DNA from: Pontiella desulfatans
Lineage (GTDB): Bacteria > Verrucomicrobiota > Kiritimatiellia > Kiritimatiellales > Pontiellaceae
Direction of reading: 5' to 3'
DNA: 64,000 bases
NCBI RefSeq assembly: GCF_900890425.1
Contig: NZ_CAAHFG010000001.1
Coordinates: forward strand, 4,154,001-4,218,000
Each line of letters opens with the position of its first letter. Position 1 is the first letter of the stretch. A model generated the notes under the pieces. That model searched no databases. It had not been told where the DNA came from and saw only the letters and a list, made by a program, of their open reading frames with translations. Positions 30,522 to 48,550 of the stretch are shown here, piece by piece. Position numbers and translations under genes: made by a program.

Positions 30522-30550
30522 GGCATATGCCTCCTTAGCTTTAGACGGTG

Positions 30551-30607
30551 CCATTGAAACAGGGAACCATGACAACCAACCCCGGCAGGCCATTAACTTT
30601 TTGTCAT
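30551..30607 (-). promoter_or_regulatory. Regulon element 1 (upstream of SHD1 gene)
   Basis: Minus strand: ATGACAA-N4-TTAAT, then TTGTCAT ending exactly 39 bp from the first base, then TTTCAATGG at the fixed downstream position. It is one of six copies with the same spacing between 30 and 45 kb. Confidence 0.8.
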
Positions 30608-30637
30608 CATGCATTCCCGCCTTGCCTCCCAGGGGGA

Positions 30638-30991
30638 TTATGCCGCGGCGGAACGGGAAACCGGCTTCCGGACTCCGTAAATTGATTCGGACAGCTTGGC
30701 CGCGGCGGCGGTGTCGCCGAGCGCGACGAGGCAGTTCATGATGCCCTGCACGGGCCAATCGTCGTTGCTGATTCGGCGGGCCTGTTCATAAAAGCCGATC
30801 GCCTCCTCGTAGGCGCCCAGCCGGTAGGCAAGCCAGCCGGCCCGCAGGAAAACCGCGTAGGATTCCCGGTCGTCGGCCAGGATCAGCTTATGGATTTCCA
30901 GGGCCTTCCGGTAGTCGCCCCGGCTCTCCGCGCGGCGCGATTGGGCCCAGTGCTTCTCCCGCAAATATCTCTGTTTTTCGGTCGCATTCAT
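30638..30991 (-). CDS. Small TPR-like protein
   Basis: 117 aa from the ATG at 30991 (MNATEKQRYLREKHWAQSRR). An ATG two codons earlier is too close to the AAGGAG site. Helical pairs with tetratricopeptide character are visible: GDYRKALEIHKLILADDRES, AGWLAYRLGAYEEAIGFYEQ and ALGDTAAAAKLSESIY. There is no signal peptide, so it is cytoplasmic. Likely a protein-protein adaptor in the regulon below which it sits. It carries its own regulon element. Partner unknown. Confidence 0.65.
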   Translation of the reverse strand: MNATEKQRYLREKHWAQSRRAESRGDYRKALEIHKLILADDRESYAVFLRAGWLAYRLGAYEEAIGFYEQARRISNDDWPVQGIMNCLVALGDTAAAAKLSESIYGVRKPVSRSAAA

Positions 30992-31026
30992 CGTCATTGC
31001 TCCTTTCGGTTTCCCGATTACGAAGA

Positions 31027-31083
31027 GCATTGAAGCCGATGAACATGACGCGGAACGGCGCGGCAAAATTAACGGTTTGTCAT
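31027..31083 (-). promoter_or_regulatory. Regulon element 2 (upstream of TPR gene)
   Basis: Minus strand: ATGACAA-N4-TTAAT, CGTCAT ending at 39 bp, then CTTCAATG at the fixed position. It directly follows the stop of the TolC-like gene. Confidence 0.8.
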
Positions 31084-32316: not shown

Positions 32317-33329
32317 CGTTTCCCCATCCATTGTTCCATGATGGAGATGTCCGGAACCACGACCACCCGCTCGCCGGGCACCAGTTCGTCGCCCTCGTCG
32401 AGTTGGATGACGATACGGCGGCCACGCAGGATCTGGTCGCCGAAGCCGGTGAAGACGGGCAGCTTGCGGATATCGGCGGTCACCGTTTGCACCGTGCCCA
32501 TGTGGACTTCACGGCTGGCCGAAGCAATGACGCGGCACTTTTCACCTTCCATGATATCGCCGCGCCGCTCCTCAGGCACGAAGGCGATGATGCGGGAGGT
32601 GGAAACATTGCTGATGCGCAGGATGGGGTCGCCGGTTTCCACCACGTCGCCGGGTTGGTGCAGCACCTCGGCCACCACTCCGGCGGTGTTCGCCTCGAGC
32701 CGGCATTGGGCGGCCTGAAGCTGCTTGAGTTCCTCGGAGTTGAATTGTTCAACATGGCTCTGCGCCGCCGCGAGCCTTTTTTCGAGCTGGGCGATCAGGT
32801 CGGGATAATGGCCCAGTACCTTGCGCGTGGCCTCGATTTGCGGGCGGAGGTCTTCGGCATCCTGTTCGAGCAGCAGGTTTTTGGAAAGCAGGTCCTGCGT
32901 CCGCGTCCAGCGGCTTTCCAAGGCCTGGAGCTCCGCCGCCGTCTTGGCCTCATCGAGCTTGAGGTTTTCCACATCGCAACGGATGGCGTGCACCTTGTCG
33001 CTCGTCTTCATGAGCGAGGCCTGGTCCATCAGCAGTTCGGTGGCCAGCGCGACGTTGTCGAGTTCGCCGAGCAGTTGCCCGGCATGGACGGCTTCGCCCA
33101 TGCCGACCAGCAGGGTTTTCAGGCGGCCGTCCTCGATCGGCGAAACATATTCATAGGTGCGCTCGGCCACGCCGTGGAAACGGATGCGGTGGAGCCCGCC
33201 GGGCAGCAGCAGCAACACGGCAACCGCGGCGCTCAGCCAAATGACCCACGGCCAGCTGCTGAAAAGCTGCTTGACGAGATGCCGGCGGCGGTGGCGCAGG
33301 GCGGGACGTTGGAAATTTCGATTAGTCAT
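32313..33329 (-). CDS. HlyD/RND-type periplasmic adaptor (membrane fusion protein)
   Basis: 338 aa. One N-terminal membrane helix (WVIWLSAAVAVLLLLPGG), a split lipoyl-like domain (SPIEDGRLKTLLVGMGEAVHAG and EANTAGVVAEVLHQPGDVV, in part) and a central coiled coil (about residues 85-215, with ALESRWTRTQDLLSKN and LIAQLEKRLAAAQ). It bridges an inner-membrane partner and the TolC-like duct. In this operon the only inner-membrane candidate is the DUF4956 protein encoded directly upstream, which makes an unusual assembly possible. Confidence 0.85.
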   Translation of the reverse strand: MTNRNFQRPALRHRRRHLVKQLFSSWPWVIWLSAAVAVLLLLPGGLHRIRFHGVAERTYEYVSPIEDGRLKTLLVGMGEAVHAGQLLGELDNVALATELLMDQASLMKTSDKVHAIRCDVENLKLDEAKTAAELQALESRWTRTQDLLSKNLLLEQDAEDLRPQIEATRKVLGHYPDLIAQLEKRLAAAQSHVEQFNSEELKQLQAAQCRLEANTAGVVAEVLHQPGDVVETGDPILRISNVSTSRIIAFVPEERRGDIMEGEKCRVIASASREVHMGTVQTVTADIRKLPVFTGFGDQILRGRRIVIQLDEGDELVPGERVVVVPDISIMEQWMGKR

Positions 33330-33344
33330 GGTGCATCCCCCTGC

Positions 33345-34046
33345 TTAAAGTTCCACGGTCGTGCGTTGCATGACGAGATTGACTTCCGCGATCGAGTCGA
33401 GCGCTTCGAGCTTCTTGACGATGTCGACCTGGTAGGAAGGATCGATCAGCCGGACCTGGTAGGAATATTCGAGCAGGTCGCCCTGCACGGCTTCGCGCAT
33501 GGCGAGCAGCATGTAGGCGGAGCAGCATTCGGCCAGCACGGCGTCCACCTCGGTGCGGGCGGCATCGTTGTCGGCTTCAACCAGGAAGCGCAGCATCGCC
33601 TCGTAGCGGCGGCGCGTGGCGAACGGCGCCCAGTGCAGCAGCACGATCACGGAGCTGAGCAGCACGCATCCCGTCACCGCCACGGCAAACATGCCCGCGC
33701 CGCAGGCAATGCCCAGCCCGAGCGCCGCGAACAGGAACATCATGTCGCGCGGGTCGCGCACCACGGTGCGGAAGCGGATCAGCGAAAGCGCGCCGAGCAC
33801 CCCGATCCCCCGCGCAACGCTGTCGCCCATCGACATCATCACCATGCACACGATCATGCCGCCGAGAATCAGCGTGTGCACGAACGAGCGGGAATAGGAG
33901 AGCGACTGGAACGTCAGCTGGTAGAGTTTCGCAATCACGGAGCACAGCACAAAGCTCAGCAGCATCGCGGAGATGACATGCTGCAGGCTCAGGCTCTGCC
34001 CGCTTCCGGCCGCGGCCAACAGGTCGGCCAATCCACTTGTATCCAT
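33345..34046 (-). CDS. DUF4956 membrane protein
   Basis: 233 aa; AAGGAG at 5 bases before the ATG at 34046. About four transmembrane helices (VISAMLLSFVLCSVIAKLYQ, SFVHTLILGGMIVCMVMMSM, FLFAALGLGIACGAGMFAV, TGCVLLSSVIVLLHW). The conserved core GVLGALSLIRFRTVVRDPRD is diagnostic of DUF4956. The cytoplasmic C-terminus has an ACT-like pattern. DUF4956 proteins often neighbour VTC-domain and CotH proteins, as here; the molecular role is not known. It lies 12 bp downstream of the VTC gene. Confidence 0.85.
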   Translation of the reverse strand: MDTSGLADLLAAAGSGQSLSLQHVISAMLLSFVLCSVIAKLYQLTFQSLSYSRSFVHTLILGGMIVCMVMMSMGDSVARGIGVLGALSLIRFRTVVRDPRDMMFLFAALGLGIACGAGMFAVAVTGCVLLSSVIVLLHWAPFATRRRYEAMLRFLVEADNDAARTEVDAVLAECCSAYMLLAMREAVQGDLLEYSYQVRLIDPSYQVDIVKKLEALDSIAEVNLVMQRTTVEL

Positions 34047-34058
34047 AGTACTCCTTAA

Positions 34059-34886
34059 TTAGTCATACATAAACTGGTCGGAAAAGGGGGCCTCCCCTTT
34101 TCCGATCAAAAGGTTTTCCATCCAGATGGCGGTGGAATATTTGCAATTGCCGCACCGGATCAGATCGAACTCCTGCACCAGCTCCACCATCCAGGTGGGC
34201 ACCTGCTCGGTGCACTTGACCTCCAGCACGAGCGACGACTCGCGGCGGTGGCGCACCAGCCCGCTGTCCATCGAAATAAAGCGGCCGTCCCCGCCCCAGT
34301 TGTACATATCGAACACAGGCTGGTAGCAGAGCTGGGAATCGAAGGTGATGCGCGCGTAGTGGTCGAAGATGCCGGTGAAGGCTTCGCGGCAATAACGGAC
34401 ATACACCAGCGGGCGCGCATCGATCTCTTCGGCAAGACGGACGAATTCGCGGAACGCCTCGCGCTCCTTCACCGATTTAAGGTTCAGTTCATCGGCATGC
34501 TTTTTCAAGATGCCGGGCTTCCATTCATCGAACGGAATGCACGCCCTCGACTTGATGACGCGTTCGAAATATTTGCGTTTGATTTCGAGGAACACCGGCG
34601 CCTGGCCCGGTGGCTTTCCGTAGGTGCGCACCCGCAGCTTGAACCGGTGCGCCGCCTCCCATTCCTTGGCATAGTGGAGCGAAAGCGCCTCGTTATCCAT
34701 CTGCAGGGTGTTGATGAAATATTGCCCGCCGGCCGCCGCGCAATGTTTGTCCATCGTGCAATAGGGGCGGATGAAGGCCTTGATCGGCTCCACCAGCTGG
34801 CGCGGAATGATGTACTTCGCCTCAAAGCGGTCCAGTTCAGTGGAAAAGTCCGCTGCCGCCGTTCTCGATTTATTAACACCCACCAT
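34059..34886 (-). CDS. VTC-domain protein (polyphosphate polymerase-like)
   Basis: 275 aa from the ATG at 34886; the start is uncertain because no close ribosome-binding site is visible. It has the tunnel-fold pattern of the VTC/CYTH superfamily: RFEAKYIIPRQ at the start, then alternating charged strands FKLRVRTYGKPP, FLEIKRKYFERVIKSRA, YVRYCREAF, RITFDSQL and SSLVLEVKCTEQVPTWM. Basic and acidic residues of this kind line the nucleotide and polyphosphate channel in the yeast family member. Whether this one makes polyphosphate is not known. First gene of VTC-DUF4956-HlyD-TolC and preceded by a regulon element. Confidence 0.87.
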   Translation of the reverse strand: MVGVNKSRTAAADFSTELDRFEAKYIIPRQLVEPIKAFIRPYCTMDKHCAAAGGQYFINTLQMDNEALSLHYAKEWEAAHRFKLRVRTYGKPPGQAPVFLEIKRKYFERVIKSRACIPFDEWKPGILKKHADELNLKSVKEREAFREFVRLAEEIDARPLVYVRYCREAFTGIFDHYARITFDSQLCYQPVFDMYNWGGDGRFISMDSGLVRHRRESSLVLEVKCTEQVPTWMVELVQEFDLIRCGNCKYSTAIWMENLLIGKGEAPFSDQFMYD

Positions 34887-34932
34887 GGTTACGCTATCGC
34901 CCGTCCTTGCCGGTTCCTTTGTTTTGATGGCT

Positions 34933-34989
34933 CCATTGAAACCGGTAAGAATGACACGGCGGCATGGCCGCCAATGAAACAATCGTCAT
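34933..34989 (-). promoter_or_regulatory. Regulon element 3 (upstream of VTC-DUF4956-HlyD-TolC operon)
   Basis: Minus strand: ATGACGA-N4-TTCAT, TGTCAT ending at 39 bp, TTTCAATGG at the fixed position. About 50 bp before the VTC start. Confidence 0.8.
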
Positions 34990-35219: not shown

Positions 35220-38200
35220 CTATTCATCCTCCACCTGAAGTTGGTAGTAGGCGCATTCCGCATCGTCCACCCCGGTGGTGTAGGTGTTCAGGGGGGGCGT
35301 CGAAGGAATGGGCGAAGCGGAAAGCTCGAAGTCTCCGGCGACCAGGTTGGTGCAGACCCACAGCGAATAGGTTTTGCCGGTGGCACTCTGCCAGGTAAAG
35401 ACGGAATTGCCGGACGTTTCCAATGATTCGAACTGGAAGGTGGACGCCGCATTGGTCGGGTCGGTTCCGGCGCGCCATTCGTTGTAGTTGGAGGCGCCGT
35501 CGAGGTCCCAGTCGTCCGCTTCCCCGCCGTGTTCCGCGTTGATGGAACCGAAATAGTCCAGCTCCCAGTCGTCCGGCAGGTTGTCGGAATCGCCGGAAGC
35601 GGCGGTTCCCGGGGAAGGCGTTGCGTCGGCCGTCCAGTTGGCGGCGTCGTTCGGGTAGAGCGAGGCAGCGGTGCGTTCGAGGGACGAACCGAGGCCGTCG
35701 GCATGGGTCGGCCACGGGGAGGCATCGTTGTATTCGACCCGCTCGACGACGATGTAGGGCACCTCGCCGGTCAGTTCCTCCGGGTCGCCGGGGCGCGTGA
35801 GTTCGAGGTCTTCGCCATCGTTGTTGAGCTGCCCGTCGTAGGGGCCAAGCACCGTGGTGCCGGCATCGACCGGATAGTAGCTGCGGAAGGTCGCCTCGTC
35901 GGTTTCGGAAACAATCAGGCATTGCCCGGCGCCCAGCACCAGACCGTCCGGGAAGGCAAACTCCACCGCCCCTTCGAGCCGCCAGGTGTTGGTTGTGTTG
36001 TAGAGCGGAACGGAGGCGGTTCCCGCATTGAACAACTCGATGAATTCGAACGCGTTGCTGTCGGCCGGGTGGTACATGATTTCGGCAACGACCACCTCGC
36101 CGACCAACGGATAGGCGTTGGCCGCGCCGGGCGTCTGCGCGCTCTGCGCAGTGAAGTCGGCGGAGCCGTCGCTCTTCACATGGCGCCCGAAGGTGACATC
36201 GCGCTCGGCGGCGCCGAAGCTTTCCCCGACCCAGTAGCCGGTCAGTTCGCCGCCTTCGCCGGAGGAGAGATAGATTTCGTCGCCCAGCTCGCTGAGCGCG
36301 AAACCGTTGGTTCCGGCCACGGTGGTTCCGAAATGCGAGGCTTCGGTCAGCACCAGATAGCCGCCGGGTGCGATGGCCTGCAAGCCGCCCAGCTCAACCT
36401 TCGCCAAGTCGTATTCGTCGTCGCTGAGGAACCAGCCGTTGATGTCGAGGGTGTTGGTGGAGCTGTTGTACAGCTCGACCCAGTCGCCGGGCGTATCGGC
36501 GTCCTGGTGGGTCAGCGCCTCGTTGATCAGCAGGTCGTCCGGGGCCAGGAAATCCACCGGCCCTGCGCCGGGCGTTCCGCCGGCATATTTACTTGGCCGC
36601 CATGAGGCGCTGTCGCCCCAGGTGTTGGTTGCCGCGTACGGATCGATCAGCGTCAGCGAGAAACCTTCGCCGTCGGTGGCCTCGTACCAGTCGTTATACC
36701 CAAAATCGAGGATCGTGTTTCCGAGTCCGTCCACCAGCGCAATGTCCTCGCCGCCGTTATCCAGCGCGGCGGTCGGGATGAAGAATTTACCATGGTAGAC
36801 GCCGGCAACGTTGATGGACGCCCAGTTGGAATAGCGGTTGGTGAAGGCGTCGTAGTCGTTCACCAGCACGGCGTAGTCGCCGGGGGCGAGCGCGGCCACG
36901 GCGCCGTCGGTGAAGTCGAACAGAACACCGTCGGTGAATTCGGTTCCGGCCAGGCCGACCGTTTCGGTGCCGGTATTCAGAATTTCGATGAACTCCGCAT
37001 CCACTGCCGTATCGTCCGGGTGGTACATGATTTCGGTAACGCGCAGCGGCGATGCTTCGTTGACGACGAACGTGGCTTTGGTGAGCGCGCTCCAGGTTCC
37101 GCCGCTCAAGCAACGCGCCTTGACCTGCGCGGAGCGGTTGAGCGTGATGGCGGAGCCGTAGGCCGTCCCGGCGACCGCGCCGCCGACGGCGCGCGGATCG
37201 GAGCCGTCGGTGGTGTAGTAGATGGTGCCGCTGCCGGAGATGGAGAGCGGGAAGCCGGAAGCGATGGCGCCACCGTGCTGGCTGAAGACGGGGGCCGCCA
37301 CCGTCGGATACCAGCCCTTCGCCACGATCTGGGCCAGCACGGTGTCGGAGCGGGTAGTCGGCGAGGCGCGGAAGTAGCTGTTGAGCAGCCAGTTCACCGT
37401 GCCCAGCCAGTCGCCGTCGCGAGTGCGAAGCGTTCCCTTGCTATCCCCCCAGCGCGCGGACTCCGCAACGACCGCGCTGTAGATTTCATCCCGGCGCGCT
37501 TCCATCCGGTTTGCACAGACCTCGGAGGTCAGCAGGCCGCCATTGAAGAAATATTCATGCACATGGTCGGCGAAGCGGAGTTTGTATTCGGCGTTATTCA
37601 TCAGCTTCAGGTTCAGCGACCATGGATTAAACCGATCCACCGCATCGAAGGAACTGCTCAGACTAACGCTGAAACGGTTTTGGCTGACGCCTTGGCTGAC
37701 TTCCAGTGAGTGCTCGTTGTCGTGGGCAACAAACTTGAAGCCGTCCGGGTTTTCGCGGTTATAGATGGCGGTAAGGTTGCGCGGCATGGTTGGGCTGTTC
37801 ATGGGAGGACCCACCGGCGAGTCGCGGTTCGCGGTGAAGTAAACAAGCAGCATATAGTCAATCACGTTATCCACATCCAGCAGTTTGGTGTAGCTGCTGT
37901 TTTCCGTTCCGTCGGCGTTCATGCCCTGGAGGGCGAAATAGGAGGCGTTGGCACTGACACCGCCATACGCTCCGGCCCAGAGTGAATCGTAGGCAGCGCG
38001 TGTGCCGTCGACCGCATAGATGTCGCCCGAGTCGGCATTGGCCTTCACGGCATCATAATCGTCGTCGTCCCCGCCGAAATACGATTCGGCATAATTCGAC
38101 TCGCAACGCTCTTCGGTCTGGTAGAGGCCCCAGTACATGCCGTTGATGTAGAGGTGGTAGTATTCGCCGGCGGTATAGGGCTGGTTCATGTCGCGGTGGG

Positions 38201-40109
38201 TGTCGCGGGTGAAGATGTCGTAGAGCCAGGTGGCATACTGCGGGGTCTGGTTCGCCCACGAAAAATTCTGCCCCGTGCGCAGATCCATGCGCTTGAAGCT
38301 GTCCACGCCCTCATCGCCGAACAGGGGATAATTCAGGCGCGATGTCCCGTATTCCGAACGGAAGAACAAGCGGAAGGAGTGCTTCGGGTTGCCCGACGAC
38401 GTGCTCGATGCCCCACGGATGCGGATGCCGCCGTTAATCTGGAAGCCGTCCGTGCCGTCGGGGTTGATCAGCTCGATGGAGGTTTCGCGCTCCCACGCCT
38501 CGCCTTCCTGGCTGGCGTTGACGTAGATGCCGGACGAGGAATCAAACAGGTTGGCCGGATCCGTCACGAGCGAGATGGTTGGAATGGCCTTCAGCGCCGA
38601 TTTGATTTCGCCGGAATAGGTTGCACTCTGCGTAATGTCCGTATCCATGCCGTAATCGAAGCCCTGTCCGTTGACCGCGCTCGGCGGGAAGTAGGGATCG
38701 AGCCCGCTGACGCTCGTGCCCTGGGCAATGATGTCGTCGAGGAAGAGATAGGTCTGCGAGTCTACATCACTGGATTGGTAGTTAGCTTTGGTTGCGGCGG
38801 CGCGCAGCACGGTGGTTTTGTTGATCGTGACGGGCGTCGTGTAAAGCGTGCCGTTGTCGGCGGAAGGGGTGGTGCCATCGATCGTGTAGTAGATTTGGGC
38901 GCCTTCGGTTTTGCAGCTGATCGCCACATCGAACGCATTGGAATAGAACCCGCGATCGACGCTGAACGAGGTGTCGCCCACATAGCCGAGCACCCCCGAC
39001 ACATTGTTTGCGCCGGGCGTGGGCGTCGGGAGATAGACGGCGGTATTCGTGTAGATCTGCCCGGCGGATAGGCCGTTGAGCTCCGGCATGATGAAGAAAT
39101 CAGCCGTGGTCCCCATTCCCGGCGGCCCCATCACGGTGGGATAGGCCAGTCCGTGGATGGCCAAAACATTCTGGCCGGTCACCAGATAATTCCCCGCATT
39201 CAAGAGGGAAAAGTCCTCATAGGCCGTGCCGCCGTGCTCGGCCGTGGCGGAGGAGGAATAGACCGGGGAGGCCGGCGCGTTGGCCGAGGCCACTTCCGTG
39301 CCGTTGATGTAGGCCACGAAGCCATCGTCGTACTTCATGCGCAAGGTCAGCTGGTCAAAGGCCGCGGCATCAGCCACGGTGAAGCCCACCCGGATGTAGG
39401 CCGAGCTGCGGTAGGTCGGCGGGCGCGAATTGACAACCATGCTCGATTCAAGATCCAACCCGATCAGGGAGCCATAGGTTGATCCCGTGTCGTATCCGAC
39501 TCCGGTCTGGCCCGAGCTCCAGCCCGAATCGTCGAATCCGGCCGCCTTCCAGCTTGCCGAAGGTTCCGACGAACCGGCAATCGCCCTCGCATCCTCGCCT
39601 TCGGCAATGAGAAACGATGTGCCGGATTCCTGATCCAGTCCGTAGGAAATGTCGTCGTCCTGCTCCGGATAATTATAGAAGGCATCAGCAACCGTCATGC
39701 CGTCGGACTCGGTCAGAACAACATCCTCGCCGTCGCCGCTGAGCTTGAAGGTCGTATGCAGGTAGCCGAGGCTGTCGGTGTAGCCGGCGGTTTCCTGCCC
39801 CGAGGCAAACACCACCAGGAACTCGCCTGCCGCGATGCTTTTGGAAGGGAATACCCATTGGGTCAGGTTGTTGGTGTCGTCGGAGAGATACCACCCCGTG
39901 AGATCGACGGGGTCGTCGCCCAGGTTATGGAGTTCGATCCAGTCGGAATAGTTGCCGTCGCCATCGATCAGCGTCTTGTCGTTCTTGGCCATGAACTCGC
40001 TGATGACCACCTGGCCAAAGCTACCGCCAACCATCATCAGGCATACGAACGCGGCAACCGCCCCGACCTTCCGCACCCCCGGAAAAGGGAATAAATCCAA
40101 ACCCACCAT
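35220..40109 (-). CDS. Giant secreted CotH-kinase-family protein with lamin-tail and chitobiase-like domains
   Basis: 1629 aa. Signal region VGAVAAFVCLMMVGGSFG. Approximate order: lamin-tail domain (33-130), a jelly-roll-like domain (190-340), chitobiase C-terminal-like domain (IYYTIDGTTPS near 405), CotH kinase region (IRIRGASST near 561, YYHLYINGMYWGLYQTEE near 650, HDNEHSL near 793), a second chitobiase-like domain (IYYTTDGSDP near 963), three more lamin-tail domains (about 1030, 1195, 1346), and a Ca-loop segment near 1508 (DSDNLPDDWELDYFG). CotH proteins in spores and some effectors phosphorylate proteins. The acidic HDNE block could be metal-binding. It may modify surface or matrix proteins. 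It has its own regulon element. Confidence 0.85.
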   Translation of the reverse strand: MVGLDLFPFPGVRKVGAVAAFVCLMMVGGSFGQVVISEFMAKNDKTLIDGDGNYSDWIELHNLGDDPVDLTGWYLSDDTNNLTQWVFPSKSIAAGEFLVVFASGQETAGYTDSLGYLHTTFKLSGDGEDVVLTESDGMTVADAFYNYPEQDDDISYGLDQESGTSFLIAEGEDARAIAGSSEPSASWKAAGFDDSGWSSGQTGVGYDTGSTYGSLIGLDLESSMVVNSRPPTYRSSAYIRVGFTVADAAAFDQLTLRMKYDDGFVAYINGTEVASANAPASPVYSSSATAEHGGTAYEDFSLLNAGNYLVTGQNVLAIHGLAYPTVMGPPGMGTTADFFIMPELNGLSAGQIYTNTAVYLPTPTPGANNVSGVLGYVGDTSFSVDRGFYSNAFDVAISCKTEGAQIYYTIDGTTPSADNGTLYTTPVTINKTTVLRAAATKANYQSSDVDSQTYLFLDDIIAQGTSVSGLDPYFPPSAVNGQGFDYGMDTDITQSATYSGEIKSALKAIPTISLVTDPANLFDSSSGIYVNASQEGEAWERETSIELINPDGTDGFQINGGIRIRGASSTSSGNPKHSFRLFFRSEYGTSRLNYPLFGDEGVDSFKRMDLRTGQNFSWANQTPQYATWLYDIFTRDTHRDMNQPYTAGEYYHLYINGMYWGLYQTEERCESNYAESYFGGDDDDYDAVKANADSGDIYAVDGTRAAYDSLWAGAYGGVSANASYFALQGMNADGTENSSYTKLLDVDNVIDYMLLVYFTANRDSPVGPPMNSPTMPRNLTAIYNRENPDGFKFVAHDNEHSLEVSQGVSQNRFSVSLSSSFDAVDRFNPWSLNLKLMNNAEYKLRFADHVHEYFFNGGLLTSEVCANRMEARRDEIYSAVVAESARWGDSKGTLRTRDGDWLGTVNWLLNSYFRASPTTRSDTVLAQIVAKGWYPTVAAPVFSQHGGAIASGFPLSISGSGTIYYTTDGSDPRAVGGAVAGTAYGSAITLNRSAQVKARCLSGGTWSALTKATFVVNEASPLRVTEIMYHPDDTAVDAEFIEILNTGTETVGLAGTEFTDGVLFDFTDGAVAALAPGDYAVLVNDYDAFTNRYSNWASINVAGVYHGKFFIPTAALDNGGEDIALVDGLGNTILDFGYNDWYEATDGEGFSLTLIDPYAATNTWGDSASWRPSKYAGGTPGAGPVDFLAPDDLLINEALTHQDADTPGDWVELYNSSTNTLDINGWFLSDDEYDLAKVELGGLQAIAPGGYLVLTEASHFGTTVAGTNGFALSELGDEIYLSSGEGGELTGYWVGESFGAAERDVTFGRHVKSDGSADFTAQSAQTPGAANAYPLVGEVVVAEIMYHPADSNAFEFIELFNAGTASVPLYNTTNTWRLEGAVEFAFPDGLVLGAGQCLIVSETDEATFRSYYPVDAGTTVLGPYDGQLNNDGEDLELTRPGDPEELTGEVPYIVVERVEYNDASPWPTHADGLGSSLERTAASLYPNDAANWTADATPSPGTAASGDSDNLPDDWELDYFGSINAEHGGEADDWDLDGASNYNEWRAGTDPTNAASTFQFESLETSGNSVFTWQSATGKTYSLWVCTNLVAGDFELSASPIPSTPPLNTYTTGVDDAECAYYQLQVEDE

Positions 40110-40161: not shown

Positions 40162-40200
40162 ATGACAACCCCTTCACCGTTATCATGAATTTTTTGTAAT
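40162..40200 (-). promoter_or_regulatory. Regulon element 4 (upstream of the CotH gene), most diverged
   Basis: Minus strand: ATTACAA-N4-TTCAT, TTGTCAT ending at 39 bp. The third block TTCAATGG is not conserved here. About 53 bp before the start codon. Confidence 0.75.
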
Positions 40201-40241: not shown

Positions 40242-40952
40242 TCATCTCGGCAACACAATCGGCCTGCTGAGGCGTCTCCCGTCCGGGGTTTCCATTCCGA
40301 GCGTAATCCGTATGACACCGGAGGAAAATTCGCCATTGGCATCAGCCAGGGAAACGGGATCGGTTAAATACAACTTCCAGCCCCCCGCCTCCAGACGGGC
40401 AACGCGCAAGGTTCCAGCAATGGCATGGGTTGCCGCCACCTGCCCCTCTTCTTCCGCCGGGGAGGGCGCTTGCGGCGAAAGCGAAACCGCGTGGGTTGCG
40501 GAACATTTCTGTGAATAGCAAACCTGGTAGTCCACCGTTAGGTTTTCCAGGGCCACGCCGCCCAGGTTATAGAGCGTGAGGTAATACCGATGCTCGCTGA
40601 CACCGGCAACCATCTCCGGATCGTCGGCCTGCGGCCCATCCTCCCCCTCGCCCAGCCACCGGCGGTCGACGGAATACGTGGGCACCACCACAAACCGCGT
40701 CGGCGCCATGAACAGATCGCATAGTTCCCACTGCCTCAGATAAGTCCGGTCGGCGGCGCAAAACCCGGAAAGGCCGGACTCAACGGTACTGCCATCATCC
40801 TTGACCAGCACAACCGACTCCTCCCGGCTATCGCATGAGACCACCACGGCATTGAACGCAGTGCCGTCATGGAGCGTAAACGTGTGCAACTCCCCCACGC
40901 CGGATGCGGTTGCGGACGCGATTAGACAGCTCAAGGCAATCAACTTTTTCAT
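40242..40952 (-). CDS. Exported SHD1-like protein, last gene of the redox operon
   Basis: 236 aa from the ATG at 40952 (GGAGAG 5 bases upstream). Signal peptide MKKLIALSCLIASATASG. Residues about 24-70 (HTFTLHDGTAFNAVVVSCDS...KDDGSTVESGLSGF) have the SHD1 pattern, as in the proteins at 27361 and 29517. The central part (YYLTLYNLGGVALENLTVDY) resembles the C-terminal half of the 29517 protein (YRYDITLANRSNLRLEKLDL), so the two are paralogues in one regulon. It starts 14 bp after the flavoprotein ends. Confidence 0.7.
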   Translation of the reverse strand: MKKLIALSCLIASATASGVGELHTFTLHDGTAFNAVVVSCDSREESVVLVKDDGSTVESGLSGFCAADRTYLRQWELCDLFMAPTRFVVVPTYSVDRRWLGEGEDGPQADDPEMVAGVSEHRYYLTLYNLGGVALENLTVDYQVCYSQKCSATHAVSLSPQAPSPAEEEGQVAATHAIAGTLRVARLEAGGWKLYLTDPVSLADANGEFSSGVIRITLGMETPDGRRLSRPIVLPR

Positions 40953-40966
40953 GTTCACTCTCCGGT

Positions 40967-42694
40967 TCAAACAGGATGCTTGAGCAGCTCCATGCCGCCG
41001 TCGGCGGCTTGGCGGATCTTGATCCAGCAAAGCCAGTCGTTATCGTTGCGCTCGGGATAGTCCTCGCGGTAGTGGCTCCCGCGCGATTCGGTGCGCATCA
41101 GCGAGGCGCGCAGCTTCATCTCGGCATTCAGCACCATGTTTGCGGTCTCGTGGCACTGCCGCAGTTCATGCAGATCGTCGGCCATGAGCAACGGCACCTG
41201 GTGGTCGCGCAGATATTCGATGTAGGTGAGCGCGGCGAGCATTCGCGCTTCGTCTTTTACGTAGAGGATAAAGTTGGGAATCATCACGCTCTGCAACGTC
41301 TGCGTAACCCACTGTGGCGAAAAGCCGCCTTGGCGCAGGTAGGGCGCATAGATTTCGGTATTAACTGTTTTCAGCACGGCATCGCTGGCTTTGACGAGCT
41401 CGCGGCCTTTGGCATAATCGGCGGCCGCTTTCCCGGCGAGCGCGCCCTGTGCGCCGGAGCCCGCCAGCGAGGATCCGACCTGCGTGTAGATCCCGCCGTT
41501 CTGCATCGAACAGAGCGAATCGCCGGCGGCATAAAGGCCGGGAATGTTGGAAGAGCATTTGTCGTCCTGCGGAAAAAGTCCTTCCGCCTTATGCTGCGAC
41601 ATACCGGCCGACACACCGCCGCTCATGGTCGGGCCTTTACCGCTGCCGCCCCCGGGAGGTCCGCCGCCTTTCCGGCTGCCGCCGGGAGGGCCTCCCGGCC
41701 CGCCGGCCATTCGTTCGCCGCCCGGAGGCGGACCGCGTCGATCACCACCGTGACCACCGCCGCCGGGTGGCGGGCCCATCATGCCACCGGTAGAGGGGCC
41801 GCTCTTTTCAACTTCAATATTCTGCTCGACCCCGAGCATGCCGCGGATCTCCTGCGTGGTGGCGCAGGTGGTTTTAGGCAGGCCTTCAAGGCCAAAATTG
41901 GTCATGCCGTGTCCATCCACCCACTCCTTGCCGCTGATTTCCGCGCCGATGCGATAGGCCATCGCGTCGCCGTCGGACGTAAGCGAACCGATCTGCCAGC
42001 CGGTCGGTTTGAAGCCGCTGGCGCCGGTGCAGAGAATGACGCTTTTGGCATGAATGGCGATGGACTCGTTTTTATCGATAAACAGGCCCATGGCTCCCAC
42101 CACTTTTCCGCCGTCTTCCAACAGGTGGGTGAGCACGACGCGCTCGATCACCGGAATGTTCCGTTCCCTGAGCGGATGATTCATGGCTTTGGCATAGGTG
42201 GCTTCCTTGAAGAAGCCCCAGGATTCCAGTTCATCGACCACAGTGGCCGACTGATCGAGCAGCAGTTCGGTGTAGACGGGATTGTTCATCTGCTCCGCCG
42301 CTTCGGCGGTCTGCCGGAGATAGTCGGCCCGGCTGATGCCATCCTTTTCGTCGAAGCGGAAAATCCCGCGGGCAAACGGCGTCTGGCCGGAGCGACCGAC
42401 GGCACCCTTGTCGACCAGCAGCACCTGGGCGCCGTTGTCGTGCGCCTTGACCGCCGCGAAAACCCCGGCCATGCCGCCGCCAACGACCAGTACATCGGTC
42501 GTGACCTGGTTCATTTTTCCTTCCACCGCGTTTTTCTTCGGCTGGCTGCGTTGCCCGGAGGGCATCGGTGGACGTCCCCCGCCCTGCGACGGTTTTTCCT
42601 GTTGCGCGAGGGCGGCGGCGCCGATGACGGCGCAAGAACCGCCGACGGCTCCCATGAAGCCCCGGCGCTTGAACGTGGTGCTAAGCGGATTCAT
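40967..42694 (-). CDS. Tat-exported FAD-dependent oxidoreductase (fumarate reductase/AprA-like) with Gly-Pro-rich insert
   Basis: 575 aa. Twin-arginine motif KRRGFMGA at residues 9-16 and a hydrophobic stretch, so export by Tat is likely. FAD motif VVGGGMAGVFAAVKA (71-85), second block VILCTGASG, C-terminal GLYAAGDSLC. Residues about 298-357 are an unusual low-complexity insert (GPPPGGGG, GGPGGPPGGS, GGGPPGGGSGKGP) between the two halves. The family reduces or oxidises small substrates such as fumarate or APS; the substrate here is unknown. It overlaps the cytochrome b gene by 14 bp. Confidence 0.8.
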   Translation of the reverse strand: MNPLSTTFKRRGFMGAVGGSCAVIGAAALAQQEKPSQGGGRPPMPSGQRSQPKKNAVEGKMNQVTTDVLVVGGGMAGVFAAVKAHDNGAQVLLVDKGAVGRSGQTPFARGIFRFDEKDGISRADYLRQTAEAAEQMNNPVYTELLLDQSATVVDELESWGFFKEATYAKAMNHPLRERNIPVIERVVLTHLLEDGGKVVGAMGLFIDKNESIAIHAKSVILCTGASGFKPTGWQIGSLTSDGDAMAYRIGAEISGKEWVDGHGMTNFGLEGLPKTTCATTQEIRGMLGVEQNIEVEKSGPSTGGMMGPPPGGGGHGGDRRGPPPGGERMAGGPGGPPGGSRKGGGPPGGGSGKGPTMSGGVSAGMSQHKAEGLFPQDDKCSSNIPGLYAAGDSLCSMQNGGIYTQVGSSLAGSGAQGALAGKAAADYAKGRELVKASDAVLKTVNTEIYAPYLRQGGFSPQWVTQTLQSVMIPNFILYVKDEARMLAALTYIEYLRDHQVPLLMADDLHELRQCHETANMVLNAEMKLRASLMRTESRGSHYREDYPERNDNDWLCWIKIRQAADGGMELLKHPV

Positions 42695-43328
42695 TGGCAG
42701 TTCCTTCGTAGATATTTAGTTTGGCTTTCTTGCGCACGGGCCTGTAGGACCAAAGCAGCGCCCCGACGGCGCCGCTGGCCAGTACGATCCAGAATCCCGA
42801 CATGGCCGGGCTGCTGTGCCGCCCAACCGTTATGACATGCCAGGTGGCCAGGCCAACGAAACCGATGGACAACAGGCCATGCACATGGCGGAACACGTTG
42901 GCCGGAAGCTTTTTCCGGACCAACGCCACCACCACGATCACCAGTAGCAAGCACCAGGCAATGATTCCGGTCAGCAGCAGGGGGGAACGAAGCATCAGCA
43001 TGAAGTTGCCAACCGGGTTGGACTCCTCCACCCAGAGGCGGCGGGCAACCATCAGAAACGGATGCAGCAGCATGACGCCCCCGGCGGCGTAGCCGATGTA
43101 TTTATGCCAGCGCAGGGTGCTGGAATAACGCATCTGAACCGCGTTGCGCGGCAACAGGCGCGATAGCCAGAACAAGCCGAGCAGCGAGCCGAAACCGGAT
43201 AGACTCACCAGCAATACGACATGCTGATAGGTAAACCGTGTTGGAACCTCCTGCGTCAGGGCCAGATAGACCGGGGCCCAGGCAAAGAAGAGCAGATACA
43301 GCGACGCGAAAATCCATTTATTCATCAT
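42681..43328 (-). CDS. Ferric-reductase-like cytochrome b membrane protein
   Basis: 215 aa, six hydrophobic segments. Histidines in paired helices (RWHKYIGYAAGGVMLLHPF and FRHVHGLLSIGFVGLATWHV) fit b-heme ligation in ferric-reductase-like transmembrane domains. It lacks the FAD/NADPH-binding C-terminal part, so it probably serves as an electron conduit across the membrane to a separate flavoprotein. The partner is likely the Tat-exported protein encoded next. Start taken as the first of two adjacent ATGs (43328, 43325). Confidence 0.78.
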   Translation of the reverse strand: MMNKWIFASLYLLFFAWAPVYLALTQEVPTRFTYQHVVLLVSLSGFGSLLGLFWLSRLLPRNAVQMRYSSTLRWHKYIGYAAGGVMLLHPFLMVARRLWVEESNPVGNFMLMLRSPLLLTGIIAWCLLLVIVVVALVRKKLPANVFRHVHGLLSIGFVGLATWHVITVGRHSSPAMSGFWIVLASGAVGALLWSYRPVRKKAKLNIYEGTANESA

Positions 43329-43329
43329 A

Positions 43330-43545
43330 TTATCCCCATGCGGTTATGGCCGGAATGGCTCTTCCGTCCGAAATGGTTATGGCATCCACCGGGCAGTATT
43401 GCTGGCAGAGGCGGCAGACCTGGCAATCCTGCGGATAGCGGATCTCGGCTTTTTTTGTTTTGGCATTCATTCGCAATACATCGGTCGGACATGTTGGAAC
43501 ACAGGTCCCGCAGCCGGTACATCCATCGATTCGTTCAATTCCCAT
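43330..43545 (-). CDS. Dicluster 4Fe-4S ferredoxin
   Basis: 71 aa from the ATG at 43545 (GGAG 8 bases upstream). Two cluster motifs, CTGCGTCVPTCP and CQVCRLCQQYCP, both complete. There is no signal peptide, so it is cytoplasmic; it would deliver low-potential electrons to the cytochrome b encoded next. First gene of ferredoxin - cytochrome b - flavoprotein - SHD1 protein, and preceded by a regulon element. Confidence 0.88.
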   Translation of the reverse strand: MGIERIDGCTGCGTCVPTCPTDVLRMNAKTKKAEIRYPQDCQVCRLCQQYCPVDAITISDGRAIPAITAWG

Positions 43546-43576: not shown

Positions 43577-43633
43577 CCATTGGAACAGACGAAGATGACA
43601 AGGCGCGGCATGGGCCAATGAATTAGTTGTCAT
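43577..43633 (-). promoter_or_regulatory. Regulon element 5 (upstream of the ferredoxin operon)
   Basis: Minus strand: ATGACAA-N4-TTCAT, TGTCAT ending at 39 bp, then TTCCAATGG at the fixed position, about 31 bp before the start codon. Confidence 0.8.
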
Positions 43634-44519: not shown

Positions 44520-45008
44520 CTAACGTCGTTGCCGCGGCGGCGGGCCGGAAGGCGCTTCGTCCGAACTCAGGTATCCATCGCTGTTTTTATCGAGTTCGCT
44601 GAAAATTTCCGCAGGACCGTCGAACTCATCCTTGGAAACCTTGCCGTCGCTATCCTTATCCAGGCGCGTCACAAAATCGCCGCCCTGCTTCTCGCCCTGC
44701 TGCTGTCCCTGCTGCTGTCCCTGCTGTTGTCCCTGCTGTTGTCCCTGCTGTTGTCCTTCTTGCCTGGGCGGACGCCCTTGGGGGGCTTCATCGGTGCCGA
44801 TATAGCCATCGCCATTCGTGTCGAGCTGGGTGAAGTGTTCCGACGGACCATCGAACTCGTCCGATGAAATCTTCCCGTCGTTATCCTTGTCCAACCGCGT
44901 CACAAAATCGGCGCCGCTGGATTGTTGCCGGTTTCCGTTTCCTCCGTTGCGCTGGGCCATGGCGGTTCCTGCAGCAAGCAGGACTAGAATTGCGAGTTGT
45001 GTCTTCAT
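44520..45008 (-). CDS. Secreted four-EF-hand calcium-binding protein
   Basis: 162 aa from the ATG at 45008 (AAGGAG upstream). Signal peptide MKTQLAILVLLAAGTAMAQ. Four canonical 12-residue loops begin at about D40 (DKDNDGKISSDE), D63 (DTNGDGYIGTDE), D117 and D140. They form two near-identical EF-hand pairs, each with the frame FVTRLD...EFDGP...F...LD...DEAP. The pairs are joined by a Q/G linker of tandem QQG units. The periplasmic domain of the sensor kinase at 46964 carries the same pair. It probably binds Ca2+ outside the cytoplasm. Own regulon element. Confidence 0.9.
   Translation of the reverse strand: MKTQLAILVLLAAGTAMAQRNGGNGNRQQSSGADFVTRLDKDNDGKISSDEFDGPSEHFTQLDTNGDGYIGTDEAPQGRPPRQEGQQQGQQQGQQQGQQQGQQQGEKQGGDFVTRLDKDSDGKVSKDEFDGPAEIFSELDKNSDGYLSSDEAPSGPPPRQRR
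44694..44757 (-). repeat. 12-bp tandem repeat coding for the QQG linker
   Basis: About five consecutive 12-bp units (plus strand ctgctgttgtcc-like) inside the EF-hand gene, encoding QQQG units. Likely to vary in copy number by slippage without loss of frame. Confidence 0.8.
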
Positions 45009-45046: not shown

Positions 45047-45103
45047 CGATTCGAACAGATGAAAATGACACGCAGGCATGGGCGGGAATGAATTGTTTGT
45101 CAT
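45047..45103 (-). promoter_or_regulatory. Regulon element 6 (upstream of the EF-hand gene)
   Basis: Minus strand: ATGACAA-N4-TTCAT, TGTCAT ending at 39 bp, then GTTCGAATCG in place of TTTCAATGG at the fixed position. Confidence 0.8.
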
Positions 45104-45157: not shown

Positions 45158-45209
45158 ACCGGACCCCACGGAAAAGTTCACGATCGTGAATTTTTCCGTG
45201 GGGTCCGGT
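45158..45209. repeat. 52-bp almost perfect palindrome, left copy
   Basis: ACCGGACCCCACGGAAAA...TTTTCCGTGGGGTCCGGT with an ACGATCGT centre. One base pair deviates from symmetry. 43 bp of it (45166-45208) recur identically at 46055-46097. Confidence 0.9.
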
Positions 45210-45210
45210 C

Positions 45211-46023
45211 TCATTGAAATCTTGTTGCGATACGCTGGATCAATTCCTGGTGCAGCGCAAAAACCTGACTGCCGGCATAGCCATTGGGCAATAATTCAGC
45301 CGGAAGCAGCGGATCGAGCGCCATGGACTGGCCATAGGCTTGGTCTTCCATTCTCAGCAGCCGAACCAGTTCTTCGTCCGAAAATCCCGCACGATCCAAG
45401 AAGGCCAGATTCTCGTTCACGAAGTCGCAGTAGCGTTGATGAACATCCTTGATGCGGTCGAAATTCCAAGCCGCCTCCACCACCGACTGGTTCCCATGGC
45501 CGAGCACCGTTCGCGATTCGAAGAGGAACGCAACACTATCGACGGCCGCCGCCCGGTCGAGGTCATCATATTCGGGCCGGATGTCCCTCGGGGTGACCCA
45601 CACACTGCGCTACAGACAGCCCAACCGTTCCTTTTTCAGGAATCTCCTCAACTCATCCCGGTAGGCGCGGTCTTTTTCGGGCACATCGAACATCAATACA
45701 TACCACCATTTGTTCCACTTCCGGTTCCAGAACCGCTGCGGATCATAATAGGGTGGAAGCCGATCCCTTCCGGCATCGGTCAGCCGCAGCCCCGGCATCG
45801 ACCCATCGGTTCGGGACTGGACTACCAGTCCCCTTTCCCTCAAGCGGGCAAGCGAAGCATAATAGGCTTTTCGGTTGGGGTAGCAGTGGCCATAAACTTC
45901 ACTGGCCCCTCGGGATAGAATGATTGCCGCCGAGCCGCCAATCAAGGAGACCAGCTCCTCGCCGGCCTTGCGGCGCATCACCGGCAAGGAAAAATCCGGA
46001 TGGTGGAATGTCGCCCATTTCAT
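45211..46023 (-). pseudogene. PaaX-like regulator (winged helix plus Cas2-like domain) interrupted by an in-frame TAG
   Basis: Reading from the ATG at 46023, an N-terminal winged-helix-like part (YYASLARLRERGLVVQSRTD) is followed by a Cas2-like domain, KWWYVLMFDVPEKDRAYRDE. The frame stops at TAG (45610-45612) after RFLKKERLGCL and continues in the same frame as RSVWVTPRDIRPEYDD. The family pattern 'G-x-x-Q-x-S-V-W-V-x-P' expects Gln at this point, so a single CAG-to-TAG change explains it. Total length of 270 codons fits PaaX-like proteins. It is flanked on both sides by the palindromic repeats. Confidence 0.8.
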
Positions 46024-46054: not shown

Positions 46055-46097
46055 CCACGGAAAAGTTCACGATCGTGAATTTTTCCGTGGGGTCCGG
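46055..46097. repeat. 43-bp palindromic repeat, right copy
   Basis: Identical over 43 bp and in the same orientation as 45166-45208; it lacks the outer CCGGA on its left side. The two copies bracket the PaaX-like gene, 889 bp apart. Confidence 0.9.
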
Positions 46098-46188
46098 AAG
46101 CATCCCTTTGCTTGGTGAACGGGATGGGAACCGACCTTCAAGCGGAGCGGGGTACTGGCCAACGCGACGGGAAGCCGGCGCGGGATTA

Positions 46189-46204
46189 TGAAAGTTTTGT
46201 AATG
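46189..46204. promoter_or_regulatory. Possible half-site of the regulon element ahead of the two-component system
   Basis: ATGAAAGTTTTGTAAT fits the inverse of ATKACAA-N4-TTMAT, as at the CotH gene. The YGTCAT partner at 39 bp is missing and the orientation points away from the response-regulator gene. It could be an autoregulatory site or chance. Confidence 0.3.
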
Positions 46205-46249: not shown

Positions 46250-46924
46250 ATGAAAGTATTAATTGTTGAGGACGACCGCAAGATTGCCTCCTTCGTGCAG
46301 AAGGGGCTGAAGGAACAGGGCTACGTGGTCGATGCATGCCATGATGGGGACGAGGGGTATGACCTCGCATCGGGTGAATCGTATGATGTGATCCTGCTCG
46401 ACATCATGTTGCCGGGCCGCGATGGGCTCAGCATCCTGCGCACCCTGCGCGAGGAAAAGAACACGGTCCCCGTCATTTTGCTCACCGCCCGCAGTGGCCT
46501 CGACGAACGGGTCGAAGGGCTCAACATGGGCGCGGACGACTATCTTCCGAAACCCTTCTTCATGGAGGAGCTCATCGCCCGGATCATTGCCGTAAGCCGC
46601 CGCGCCTCGGGAGACCAGCTCAGCGTCCTGCACCACGGCGACCTGGAGCTCAACCTGATTACCCGCGTGGTCAAGAGCGGAGGCGAAACGCCCGAGCTGA
46701 CCAGCCGCGAATTCAACCTGCTCGAACTCCTGATGCGTTCGCCCGGGCGGGTCTATTCCCGCACCCAGTTGCTCGAGCACGTCTGGGGCTACGACTTTGA
46801 TCCCCAGACCAACGTGGTCGATGTCTACATCCGCCGCGTCCGCGGCAAGATCGATTCGCCCGACACCCCTTCCCTCATCGAAACCGTCCGTGGTGTCGGC
46901 TACCGGTTCAAGGCGGAAGGATAG
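46250..46924 (+). CDS. OmpR-family response regulator
   Basis: 224 aa from the ATG at 46250 (MKVLIVEDDRKIASFVQKGL). The receiver domain has acidic ED at 7-9, phospho-acceptor D51 in LLDIMLPG, T in LLTARSG and K in LPKPFF. The C-terminal winged helix has TSREFNLLELLMR, RTQLLEHVWG and VDVYIRRVRGKID, the classical OmpR/PhoB DNA-binding pattern closest in style to QseB/CusR. Forms a pair with the kinase that begins 39 bp downstream. It is the obvious candidate to bind the 39-bp elements of the neighbouring regulon. Confidence 0.93.
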   Translation: MKVLIVEDDRKIASFVQKGLKEQGYVVDACHDGDEGYDLASGESYDVILLDIMLPGRDGLSILRTLREEKNTVPVILLTARSGLDERVEGLNMGADDYLPKPFFMEELIARIIAVSRRASGDQLSVLHHGDLELNLITRVVKSGGETPELTSREFNLLELLMRSPGRVYSRTQLLEHVWGYDFDPQTNVVDVYIRRVRGKIDSPDTPSLIETVRGVGYRFKAEG

Positions 46925-46963: not shown

Positions 46964-48550
46964 ATGAGAATCTCCTTCAAATTCAAGATCGCTGTTATAT
47001 CGTTCGCCGTTTCCGGGGCCTTGCTAACGGCATTCGGCCTGGTTTTTTTTGCGTTTGTCTACCAGTCCGGGATGGATCGCATGGATCGGGAAATCCGCAC
47101 GTTCGCGGAATCGTCGTTGCATGGGGCCCGGCCGCCCGAGCATTGGCAGGATTTCGACAAGTCGCTGAACTTCATCTATGGCGACACCAGCGCTACGCGC
47201 ATGGCCTTGCTCGTCCTCGGCATGGATGACGGCATCCAGTTCAAGTCCAAAAACGCGCCGAAGGAGCTGGCTACCCTGCCGCGGCCCAAACCTCCCGAGC
47301 AACGAATGGAACCACGCCCCGGCATTGACGAACATTTCAACACCCGGCTCGACCGGAACCAAGACGGTCGTGTTTCCTTCGAGGAGTTCGATGGCCCGCC
47401 GCACGTCTTCTTCGAAACCGACCGGAACAATGATGGATACCTGGACCGGGATGAAGCCGAGGAAATCGGCTCCCCGCCGAGGGGCAGGTTCCGTCGCAAT
47501 GGCGCACCGGAAACCCCCACCTTCACCCAGGCGTTCCTGACCATGGAAACCGATTCCGGGAACTGGCGCGTCGGGACGTTCAGCGATCCCAATCTCACGG
47601 TGCATGTGGCGATGGACATGGTCGAGTTTTATTCGGACATCAACCGCTTCAGGACCGCGTTCATGATTGCCGTCCCGCTCGGATTGATTCTGATGGGCAT
47701 CGCGGGCTGGTTCATGGCAGGCCGAGCCATGCAACCCGTCGCCGCCATTGCCGACACGGCGGAAGGCATCACGGCCAAAGACCTCGGCAAGCGTATCCCG
47801 ATGGTTGGAAACGACATCGAGCTCGAACGCCTCGTGACGGTTTCCAACAACATGCTCGACCGCTTGCAGAAGAGCTATAACCAGGCGGTGCGCTTCAGTG
47901 CCGATGCTGCGCACGAGTTGCAAACGCCGCTCACCATTCTCCAGGGCGAGCTCGACAACGCCATCCAAAGTTCGGAAGACGGTTCCACCGAGCAGCAGAA
48001 CTACAGCATGCTGCTCGATGAACTGCGCAACCTGAAGGCCGTAGTGCAAAAGTTGCTCCTGCTCGCCCATGCCGACGAAGGCCGGCTCAACATCAACCCA
48101 CAATCCACCGACCTTGGGGATCTGATTGAAAGCGCGGTGGAGGACATTGAAATCATGGCGCCCGGTCTGGAAATCGAGAAGAGCATCGAAGAAGGGATCA
48201 TTGTTTCCGCCGATCCCGCCCTGCTCAACCAAACGATCCGGAACATGATCTCGAACGCGGCCAAGTATGCCACGGGGAACGGGCGGGTGGTGTTTGGGCT
48301 CAAACAGGATGCCGGCTCGGCGCTCTTCACCCTGGCCAACACCGCGCCTCCGATTCCGGATGAAGACCAACCCTTGTTGTTCGACCGCTTCCACCGCGTT
48401 GACAAGGCGCGCACCACCACAGGCTCCGGCCTTGGCCTAAGCCTGGCCCGCGAGATTGCCCGCGCCCACGGCGGCGACCTCGTGCTTGCCCCCTACAACG
48501 ATGGCATGGTCTCGTTCACGCTGACCCTCCCGGTCCACCCCGGCCGCTAG
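46964..48550 (+). CDS. Sensor histidine kinase with an EF-hand pair in its extracytoplasmic domain
   Basis: 528 aa. Membrane helices about 8-32 and 229-252. The extracytoplasmic part contains two canonical EF-hand loops: D130-E141 (DRNQDGRVSFEE) and D153-E164 (DRNNDGYLDRDE), followed by a PPRGRFRR stretch. HAMP domain follows, then the His box FSADAAHELQTPLT (H317), and an ATPase with NMISNAAKYA, a diverged G1 region and TGSGLGLSLAREI. The EF-hand pair shares the wording F-x-TRLD...EFDGP...F...D-x-N-x-DGY...DEA with the secreted protein at 44520. This strongly suggests Ca2+ sensing or direct competition for a shared ligand. Confidence 0.9.
   Translation: MRISFKFKIAVISFAVSGALLTAFGLVFFAFVYQSGMDRMDREIRTFAESSLHGARPPEHWQDFDKSLNFIYGDTSATRMALLVLGMDDGIQFKSKNAPKELATLPRPKPPEQRMEPRPGIDEHFNTRLDRNQDGRVSFEEFDGPPHVFFETDRNNDGYLDRDEAEEIGSPPRGRFRRNGAPETPTFTQAFLTMETDSGNWRVGTFSDPNLTVHVAMDMVEFYSDINRFRTAFMIAVPLGLILMGIAGWFMAGRAMQPVAAIADTAEGITAKDLGKRIPMVGNDIELERLVTVSNNMLDRLQKSYNQAVRFSADAAHELQTPLTILQGELDNAIQSSEDGSTEQQNYSMLLDELRNLKAVVQKLLLLAHADEGRLNINPQSTDLGDLIESAVEDIEIMAPGLEIEKSIEEGIIVSADPALLNQTIRNMISNAAKYATGNGRVVFGLKQDAGSALFTLANTAPPIPDEDQPLLFDRFHRVDKARTTTGSGLGLSLAREIARAHGGDLVLAPYNDGMVSFTLTLPVHPGR

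Follow-up and report, generated by a model that had tools for sequence, protein, structure and literature searches.

A Predicted Exported Flavoprotein–Cytochrome–Ferredoxin Operon Controlled Together with Calcium-Type Surface Proteins in Pontiella desulfatans

Introduction

The marine, seaweed-degrading bacterium Pontiella desulfatans carries, within a 64,000-nucleotide stretch of contig NZ_CAAHFG010000001.1 (positions 4,154,001 to 4,218,000; hereafter the window, to which coordinates refer unless stated otherwise), a redox operon encoding a ferredoxin, a b-type cytochrome and a flavoprotein with a twin-arginine translocation (Tat) signal. Judged from its sequence, the operon probably encodes an exported oxidoreductase of the MsrQ-like/Mfr-like kind, in a new combination with calcium-type surface proteins. 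It joins an exported branch of AprA/FrdA-type flavoproteins and its ferredoxin, an MsrQ-like cytochrome, and control in common with EF-hand and CotH surface proteins, three components that were not known to belong together before. The single parts are of known types, and no earlier report of their combination or regulation was found in the literature.

The Operon and Its Flavoprotein

All four genes of the operon lie on the minus strand. The gene for a 71-residue dicluster 2[4Fe-4S] ferredoxin (43330-43545), recognized by Fer4 families of Pfam above the cut-off, is separated by 1 nt from the gene for a 215-residue cytochrome of the Ferric_reduct/MsrQ-like family PF01794 (42681-43328), which in turn overlaps by 14 nt with the gene for a 575-residue flavoprotein of the AprA/FrdA fold (40967-42694). 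These spacings confirm the initial annotation, in which the three genes overlap or abut. The last gene, 11 nt further on, encodes a secreted 237-residue protein (40242-40955). The order ferredoxin-cytochrome-flavoprotein is kept in 6 of the 117 related genomes searched, all of them Pontiella, and in P. sulfatireligans the flavoprotein gene is present as a tandem pair.

The flavoprotein is predicted to be Tat-exported, as the initial annotation had proposed: its N-terminus carries a twin-arginine signal (KRRGFMGAVGG...AAALA) that is conserved in all seven Pontiella copies, and TatC is encoded in the genome. No second close flavoprotein of this type is present in the genome. The protein has FAD_binding_2 and C-terminal Succ_DH_flav_C domains (Pfam), and in profile searches its closest relatives are AprA, the alpha subunit of 3'-phosphoadenosine 5'-phosphosulfate (PAPS) reductase and SdhA, with AprA (1jnr, E 2.5e-59) and the Methanothermococcus PAPS reductase (8a8o, E 5.1e-58) as the best matches. 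Its AlphaFold model (mean predicted local distance difference test, pLDDT, 78) resembles PAPS reductase (Z 44.1), FrdA (Z 43.5, 437 residues aligned) and AprA (Z 38.5). The C-terminal helical domain typical of complex-II/Apr-type proteins is present; the matches to flavocytochrome c3 and urocanate reductase, which do not have this domain, end near model residue 430.

Neither AprA nor FrdA/SdhA is an acceptable identity for this protein. With the AprA model TIGR02061 it scores 66 bits against a cut-off of 642, and AprA Arg265, the residue that binds adenosine 5'-phosphosulfate (APS), is aligned with a non-Arg column in the flavoprotein family. The best FrdA/SdhA-type NCBIfam model, NF006131, gives 173 bits against a cut-off of 587, and key residues are absent. 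The SdhA motif NRLGGNS is aligned with YTQVGSS, in which the substrate Arg is replaced by Q405 (G in most of the family). In the capping-domain region, a Gly/Pro-rich segment (residues ~300-360) is left unaligned and is not expected to form an ordered cap with a catalytic Arg; disorder is predicted here, with pLDDT below 50 at 264-281 and 301-360. Given the missing Arg of the RLGGNS motif and the disordered Gly/Pro-rich cap, fumarate or succinate is an unlikely substrate. The histidine for covalent attachment of flavin adenine dinucleotide (FAD) is absent as well (RSGQTP; the column holds mostly Q/A/L/S/E/C in 53 rows). Since Wolinella methylmenaquinol:fumarate reductase likewise binds FAD non-covalently (PMC2680327), this absence alone does not exclude fumarate reduction. 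H262 and H368, aligned with histidines of the SdhA and PAPS reductase active sites, are conserved in 44/53 and 45/53 relatives. The description as fumarate-reductase-like holds for the fold and domains but not for the fumarate-reductase signatures. The cap is richer in Gly and Pro in exported members (median fraction 0.42 vs 0.225); as a marker of export this was rejected, since only four changes of the Tat label occur on the tree, which leaves it inseparable from ancestry.

The Ferredoxin as Partner of the Flavoprotein

The ferredoxin contains two CxxCxxCxxxCP motifs, ends in Trp-Gly and has no signal peptide. It has no second copy in the genome, where the next best match is at 37% identity (E 1.9e-4). 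A genome scan for relatives of the flavoprotein, mostly at 34-50% identity, recovered members in Desulfobacterota, Alphaproteobacteria, Gammaproteobacteria, Chloroflexota, Actinomycetota, Lentisphaerota and Bacillota. In more than 30 loci the flavoprotein lies next to a small dicluster ferredoxin from the family of the Pontiella one, and most of these flavoproteins lack an export signal. Exported flavoproteins are still paired with it in Deltaproteobacteria, Lentisphaerae, Actinomycetota and Chloroflexi. These ferredoxins mostly end in Trp or Trp-Gly, and the C-terminal Trp is kept in exported and cytoplasmic pairs. By this gene company, the ferredoxin is a dedicated partner of the flavoprotein family and not of the cytochrome. 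In two Chloroflexi loci (L034, L070), an exported flavoprotein with a lipobox-like sequence adjoins a DUF4405 protein, a member of a family for which heme b binding has been demonstrated (PMC11334425).

Desulfopila aestuarii, the sister of Pontiella on the tree, has the cytochrome and an exported flavoprotein. No ferredoxin of the family is found near this pair, and no dedicated one elsewhere in the genome; the D. aestuarii ferredoxins closest to that of Pontiella were rejected as partners, as they sit with 2-oxoacid oxidoreductase genes. In segment 536-557, which is nearly intact in Pontiella, the D. aestuarii flavoprotein differs from the others at 6 of 14 positions that are otherwise conserved (p 0.0014), and this fits an interface that is still used after export. 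The simplest reading is that the ferredoxin would still bind the flavoprotein in Pontiella. The distances of flavoproteins and ferredoxins also correlate (Mantel r 0.60, p 2e-4), although this comes partly from shared ancestry, which is one of several points that weigh against the proposed pairing and export. The deviation at 536-557 is that of a single lineage, the D. aestuarii pair demonstrates that the cytochrome and the exported flavoprotein can exist without this ferredoxin, and in Pontiella the ferredoxin gene precedes the cytochrome gene instead of lying beside the flavoprotein gene. In addition, the AlphaFold2 model of the cytochrome, with about six membrane helices, is of low confidence (mean pLDDT 54) and too poor for use.

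The Cytochrome and the Proposed Electron Path

The cytochrome scores 44.9 bits with PF01794 (cut-off 28) and is the only match to this family in the whole genome. Two H-x13-H pairs (H75/H89 and H150/H164) are invariant across six Pontiella sequences; this spacing, 14 residues apart, is that of the FRD/MsrQ family. A Pfam scan found no flavin or nicotinamide adenine dinucleotide (NAD) domain in the protein, and a sequence search for solved structures matching it returned none. Together with ALAD, an enzyme of tetrapyrrole synthesis encoded in the genome, these features agree with the earlier assignment as a probable b-heme protein without a flavin domain. Genes of the futalosine pathway for menaquinone (two PF02621 proteins and a futalosine hydrolase/UbiA fusion-like open reading frame, ORF) would provide the cytochrome with a conventional electron donor. 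The fusion-like ORF, of 465 residues and resembling a futalosine hydrolase-UbiA prenyltransferase fusion, adjoins an MqnD-like gene (contig C3 of the same genome, ~574-577 kb).

Most likely, the operon encodes an oxidoreductase attached to the inner membrane at its periplasmic side. Lacking a signal of its own, the ferredoxin would bind the folded flavoprotein in the cytosol and travel with it through Tat, a system that moves proteins already folded. The cytochrome would then pass electrons from menaquinol to the ferredoxin and on to FAD, which would reduce a periplasmic or surface acceptor other than fumarate; with the cap open and disordered, FAD may be accessible to a bulky acceptor. We give this arrangement, with a co-exported ferredoxin fed by the cytochrome from menaquinol, an even chance of being correct. 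The operon makes ferredoxin co-export directly testable, and the enzyme could represent a periplasmic electron sink for fermentative polysaccharide degraders of the Planctomycetes-Verrucomicrobia-Chlamydiae group.

A cytosolic ferredoxin could instead reduce the inner heme of the cytochrome, from which electrons would cross to the exported flavoprotein and then to an outside acceptor. The missing signal peptide and the abutting cytochrome gene are in line with this route, as are ORFs resembling Rnf subunits at ~0.9-3.6 kb of the window; also, a cytochrome without the usual cytosolic flavin domain needs another donor. The ferredoxin family, however, pairs with the flavoprotein and not with the cytochrome, the D. 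aestuarii cytochrome/flavoprotein pair has no such ferredoxin, and the exported versions in Chloroflexi combine a different membrane protein with the same kind of ferredoxin. The cytosolic route is therefore possible but doubtful, and the dedicated ferredoxin-flavoprotein pairing favors co-export over it. A path for low-potential electrons from the cytoplasm to an outside acceptor had been proposed in the initial annotation; its exported flavoprotein and b-heme protein stand, while its cytosolic ferredoxin leg is judged less likely. The accompanying idea, that the ferredoxin is an unattached cytosolic carrier with a pool in common with Rnf, is not supported, given the dedicated flavoprotein partner and the single ferredoxin copy.

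Electrons could also flow in the reverse direction, with the flavoprotein oxidizing a periplasmic substrate and passing electrons through the ferredoxin and cytochrome into menaquinone. Enzymes of the SDH/FrdA/AprA fold can run in either direction. Oxidizable substrates are plausible, since a Pontiella relative degrades macroalgal polysaccharides (PMC10880615). On the other hand, no terminal acceptor was identified, an electron sink is worth more to a strict anaerobe, and succinate, the most obvious substrate for oxidation, is unlikely given the missing residues, which leaves reverse flow improbable.

A Shared Promoter Motif

The motif ATKACAA-N4-TTCAT-N17-TGTCAT is common to the regions upstream of the ferredoxin operon, the EF-hand gene and the CotH gene. 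At up to three mismatches it is found seven times in the window, against 0.03 expected; one of the seven is the reverse-strand read of the CotH site, leaving six distinct promoters. In the whole genome (8.66 Mb), at up to two mismatches, it occurs at seven distinct places, of which six are in the window. The initial annotation's proposal of common control is confirmed by these six promoters and the one further genomic site.

The six sites, located by motif search, all lie on the minus strand. The CusR-like operator/promoter of the redox operon, ATGACAACTAATTCAT-N17-TGTCAT, lies at 43595-43633. The same motif is found at 45065-45103, upstream of the gene for a secreted EF-hand protein (44520-45008) with canonical Ca2+-type loops by Pfam, which is near the operon in all six Pontiella, and at 40162-40200, upstream of the CotH gene (35220-40109), whose secreted product combines CotH kinase, lamin-tail and chitobiase-like parts (Pfam). 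A site with one mismatch (34951-34989) precedes an operon for a VTC domain protein, a DUF4956 membrane protein, an HlyD family protein and an outer membrane efflux protein (OEP; 31099-34982, from Pfam and ORFs). Further sites lie upstream of a small tetratricopeptide repeat protein (31045-31083, two mismatches; ORF 30638-31066) and of a paralogue of the 40242-40955 protein (30569-30607, one mismatch). The sole remote site (L117, contig C4:287168 of the same genome) precedes a small acidic lipoprotein, GCDEDSEDSDDSE..., which is likely a further regulon member.

The left half of the motif, ATGACAA/ATTACAA, matches the Escherichia coli CusR and Pseudomonas boxes cited in PMC11195947, and ATTACA...TTCAT resembles the Pseudomonas palindrome given there. 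The operator box alone, ATTACAAAACTTTCAT, is also found by motif search at 46188-46203 (minus strand), in the upstream region of an adjacent regulator gene. This gene (46250-46924, plus strand) encodes an OmpR-family response regulator whose best NCBIfam model is CztR/SilR/CopR (TIGR01387); at 244 bits against a cut-off of 279, it is CopR-like but below the family cut-off. It is followed by the gene for a CztS/SilS/CopS-like histidine kinase with EF-hand loops in its sensor (46964-48550, plus strand; NCBIfam and Pfam). These loops were detected by Pfam in P. desulfatans and by eye in P. sulfatireligans. The sequences fit a motif that belongs with this CusR-like two-component system, and most likely this system, of a calcium-sensor-like type, turns on the redox enzyme along with calcium-binding surface proteins.

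Comparison across Pontiella

The same core genes in four other Pontiella species carry CTTAA-N6-CTTAAGG boxes, with two to five exact copies per locus, compared with at most one copy in 200 shuffles. They resemble the PmrA box, which consists of two CTTAA-type half-sites five bases apart (PMC3973317), and in both loci scanned, of the four with CTTAA boxes, the neighboring regulator scores highest as PmrA. CotH was not found within the 15-16 kb stretches around the operon in these four species, and CotH and VTC are joined to the redox operon only in P. desulfatans and P. sulfatireligans. From this absence of CotH, the EF-hand protein and the redox operon are the conserved unit. The earlier placement in a Ca/CotH regulon is thus correct as regards co-regulation with the EF-hand, CotH and VTC genes, but CotH is outside the conserved core. 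Within a single genus, one core is under two different two-component systems and two operators, which is good evidence for a joint function of its parts, the EF-hand protein and the redox operon.

The type of regulator could also point to a stress-response reductase or relay, for detoxification of metals or oxidants, instead of a respiratory enzyme. Both the CztR/CopR-like and the PmrA-like regulators are compatible with this, as are the HlyD/OEP genes in the regulon, and MsrQ itself serves the repair of oxidized periplasmic proteins. However, neither a metal-resistance transporter nor an Msr enzyme was identified among the regulon genes, and the EF-hands of the sensor point to Ca2+ more than to Cu or Zn, making such a role very unlikely. 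A more speculative possibility, itself unlikely, is a Kiritimatiellota system for extracytosolic electron delivery. Its complex-II-type flavoprotein would have exchanged the substrate cap for the disordered Gly/Pro-rich segment and would hand electrons to a large acceptor at the surface or bound to the matrix; the system would be expressed along with the EF-hand and CotH surface proteins when the EF-hand kinase senses Ca2+ or another cation.

Relation to Known Systems

The 8-methylmenaquinol:fumarate reductase MfrABE of Wolinella and Campylobacter is a precedent for a Tat signal present only on the complex-II-type flavoprotein, with export of the hydrophilic subunits (PMC2680327). With its membrane anchor and menaquinol-type donor it resembles the complex proposed for Pontiella. 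In contrast to MfrABE, the anchor in Pontiella is an MsrQ-like cytochrome, the Fe-S partner is a small dicluster ferredoxin, and the flavoprotein has neither fumarate signatures nor an ordered cap. In MsrPQ and the "MsrQ-like" extracytosolic systems (PMC8238504), as in Pontiella, an exported redox protein is accompanied by a PF01794 cytochrome that has two histidine pairs. The Pontiella system differs from them in having no MsrP, ApbE, FMN_bind protein or NAD domain, and its cytochrome is accompanied by an AprA-like flavoprotein and a ferredoxin. No FMN_bind domain or apbE indicating ApbE-type flavinylation was found among the operon proteins and flanking genes scanned. AprAB and the Methanothermococcus PAPS reductase, the best profile matches, likewise combine a flavoprotein with a dicluster ferredoxin-type partner. 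The Pontiella flavoprotein is, unlike theirs, predicted to be exported, with Arg265 unmatched and the cap region not conserved.

Neighboring CotH, VTC and DUF4956 genes are also known from the CotH-polyphosphate polymerase-DUF4956 cassette (PMC7112168). In the window these genes have a common promoter motif, through which, unlike in that cassette, their control is tied to that of an EF-hand gene and a redox operon; pel genes were not seen nearby.

Other Observations

The 40242-40955 protein has no Pfam family match, and the label SHD1 was dropped as it has no Pfam support. Paralogues occur elsewhere in the regulon and relatives adjoin the operon in other Pontiella. One paralogue (29517-30758, minus strand) falls into two ORFs whose frames differ, with the break at a G-rich stretch that codes for Gly; its homologue at L020:5403-6350 is a single ORF, and the split is a frameshift or an assembly error. 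Two identical copies of a 43-nt palindromic repeat (45166-45208 and 46055-46097, 889 bp apart) lie on either side of a PaaX-like gene, which is read as the two ORFs 45211-45603 and 45610-46023; the pair is possibly a small mobile element or one like repetitive extragenic palindromic (REP) sequences.

In Pontiellaceae B1224 (L041/L025), a second flavoprotein-ferredoxin pair, this one not exported, has Lcl_C-like (DUF1566) secreted proteins as neighbors. Lcl_C neighbors are also found beside exported flavoproteins in loci L070 and L071, and arylsulfotransferase-like neighbors in loci L032, L036 and L071. In D. aestuarii (L029, 7462-8778), the cytochrome/flavoprotein pair has similar gene company in another phylum: next to it lie an EF-hand protein that contains Pro-rich stretches, a two-component system, and small lipoproteins rich in Pro.

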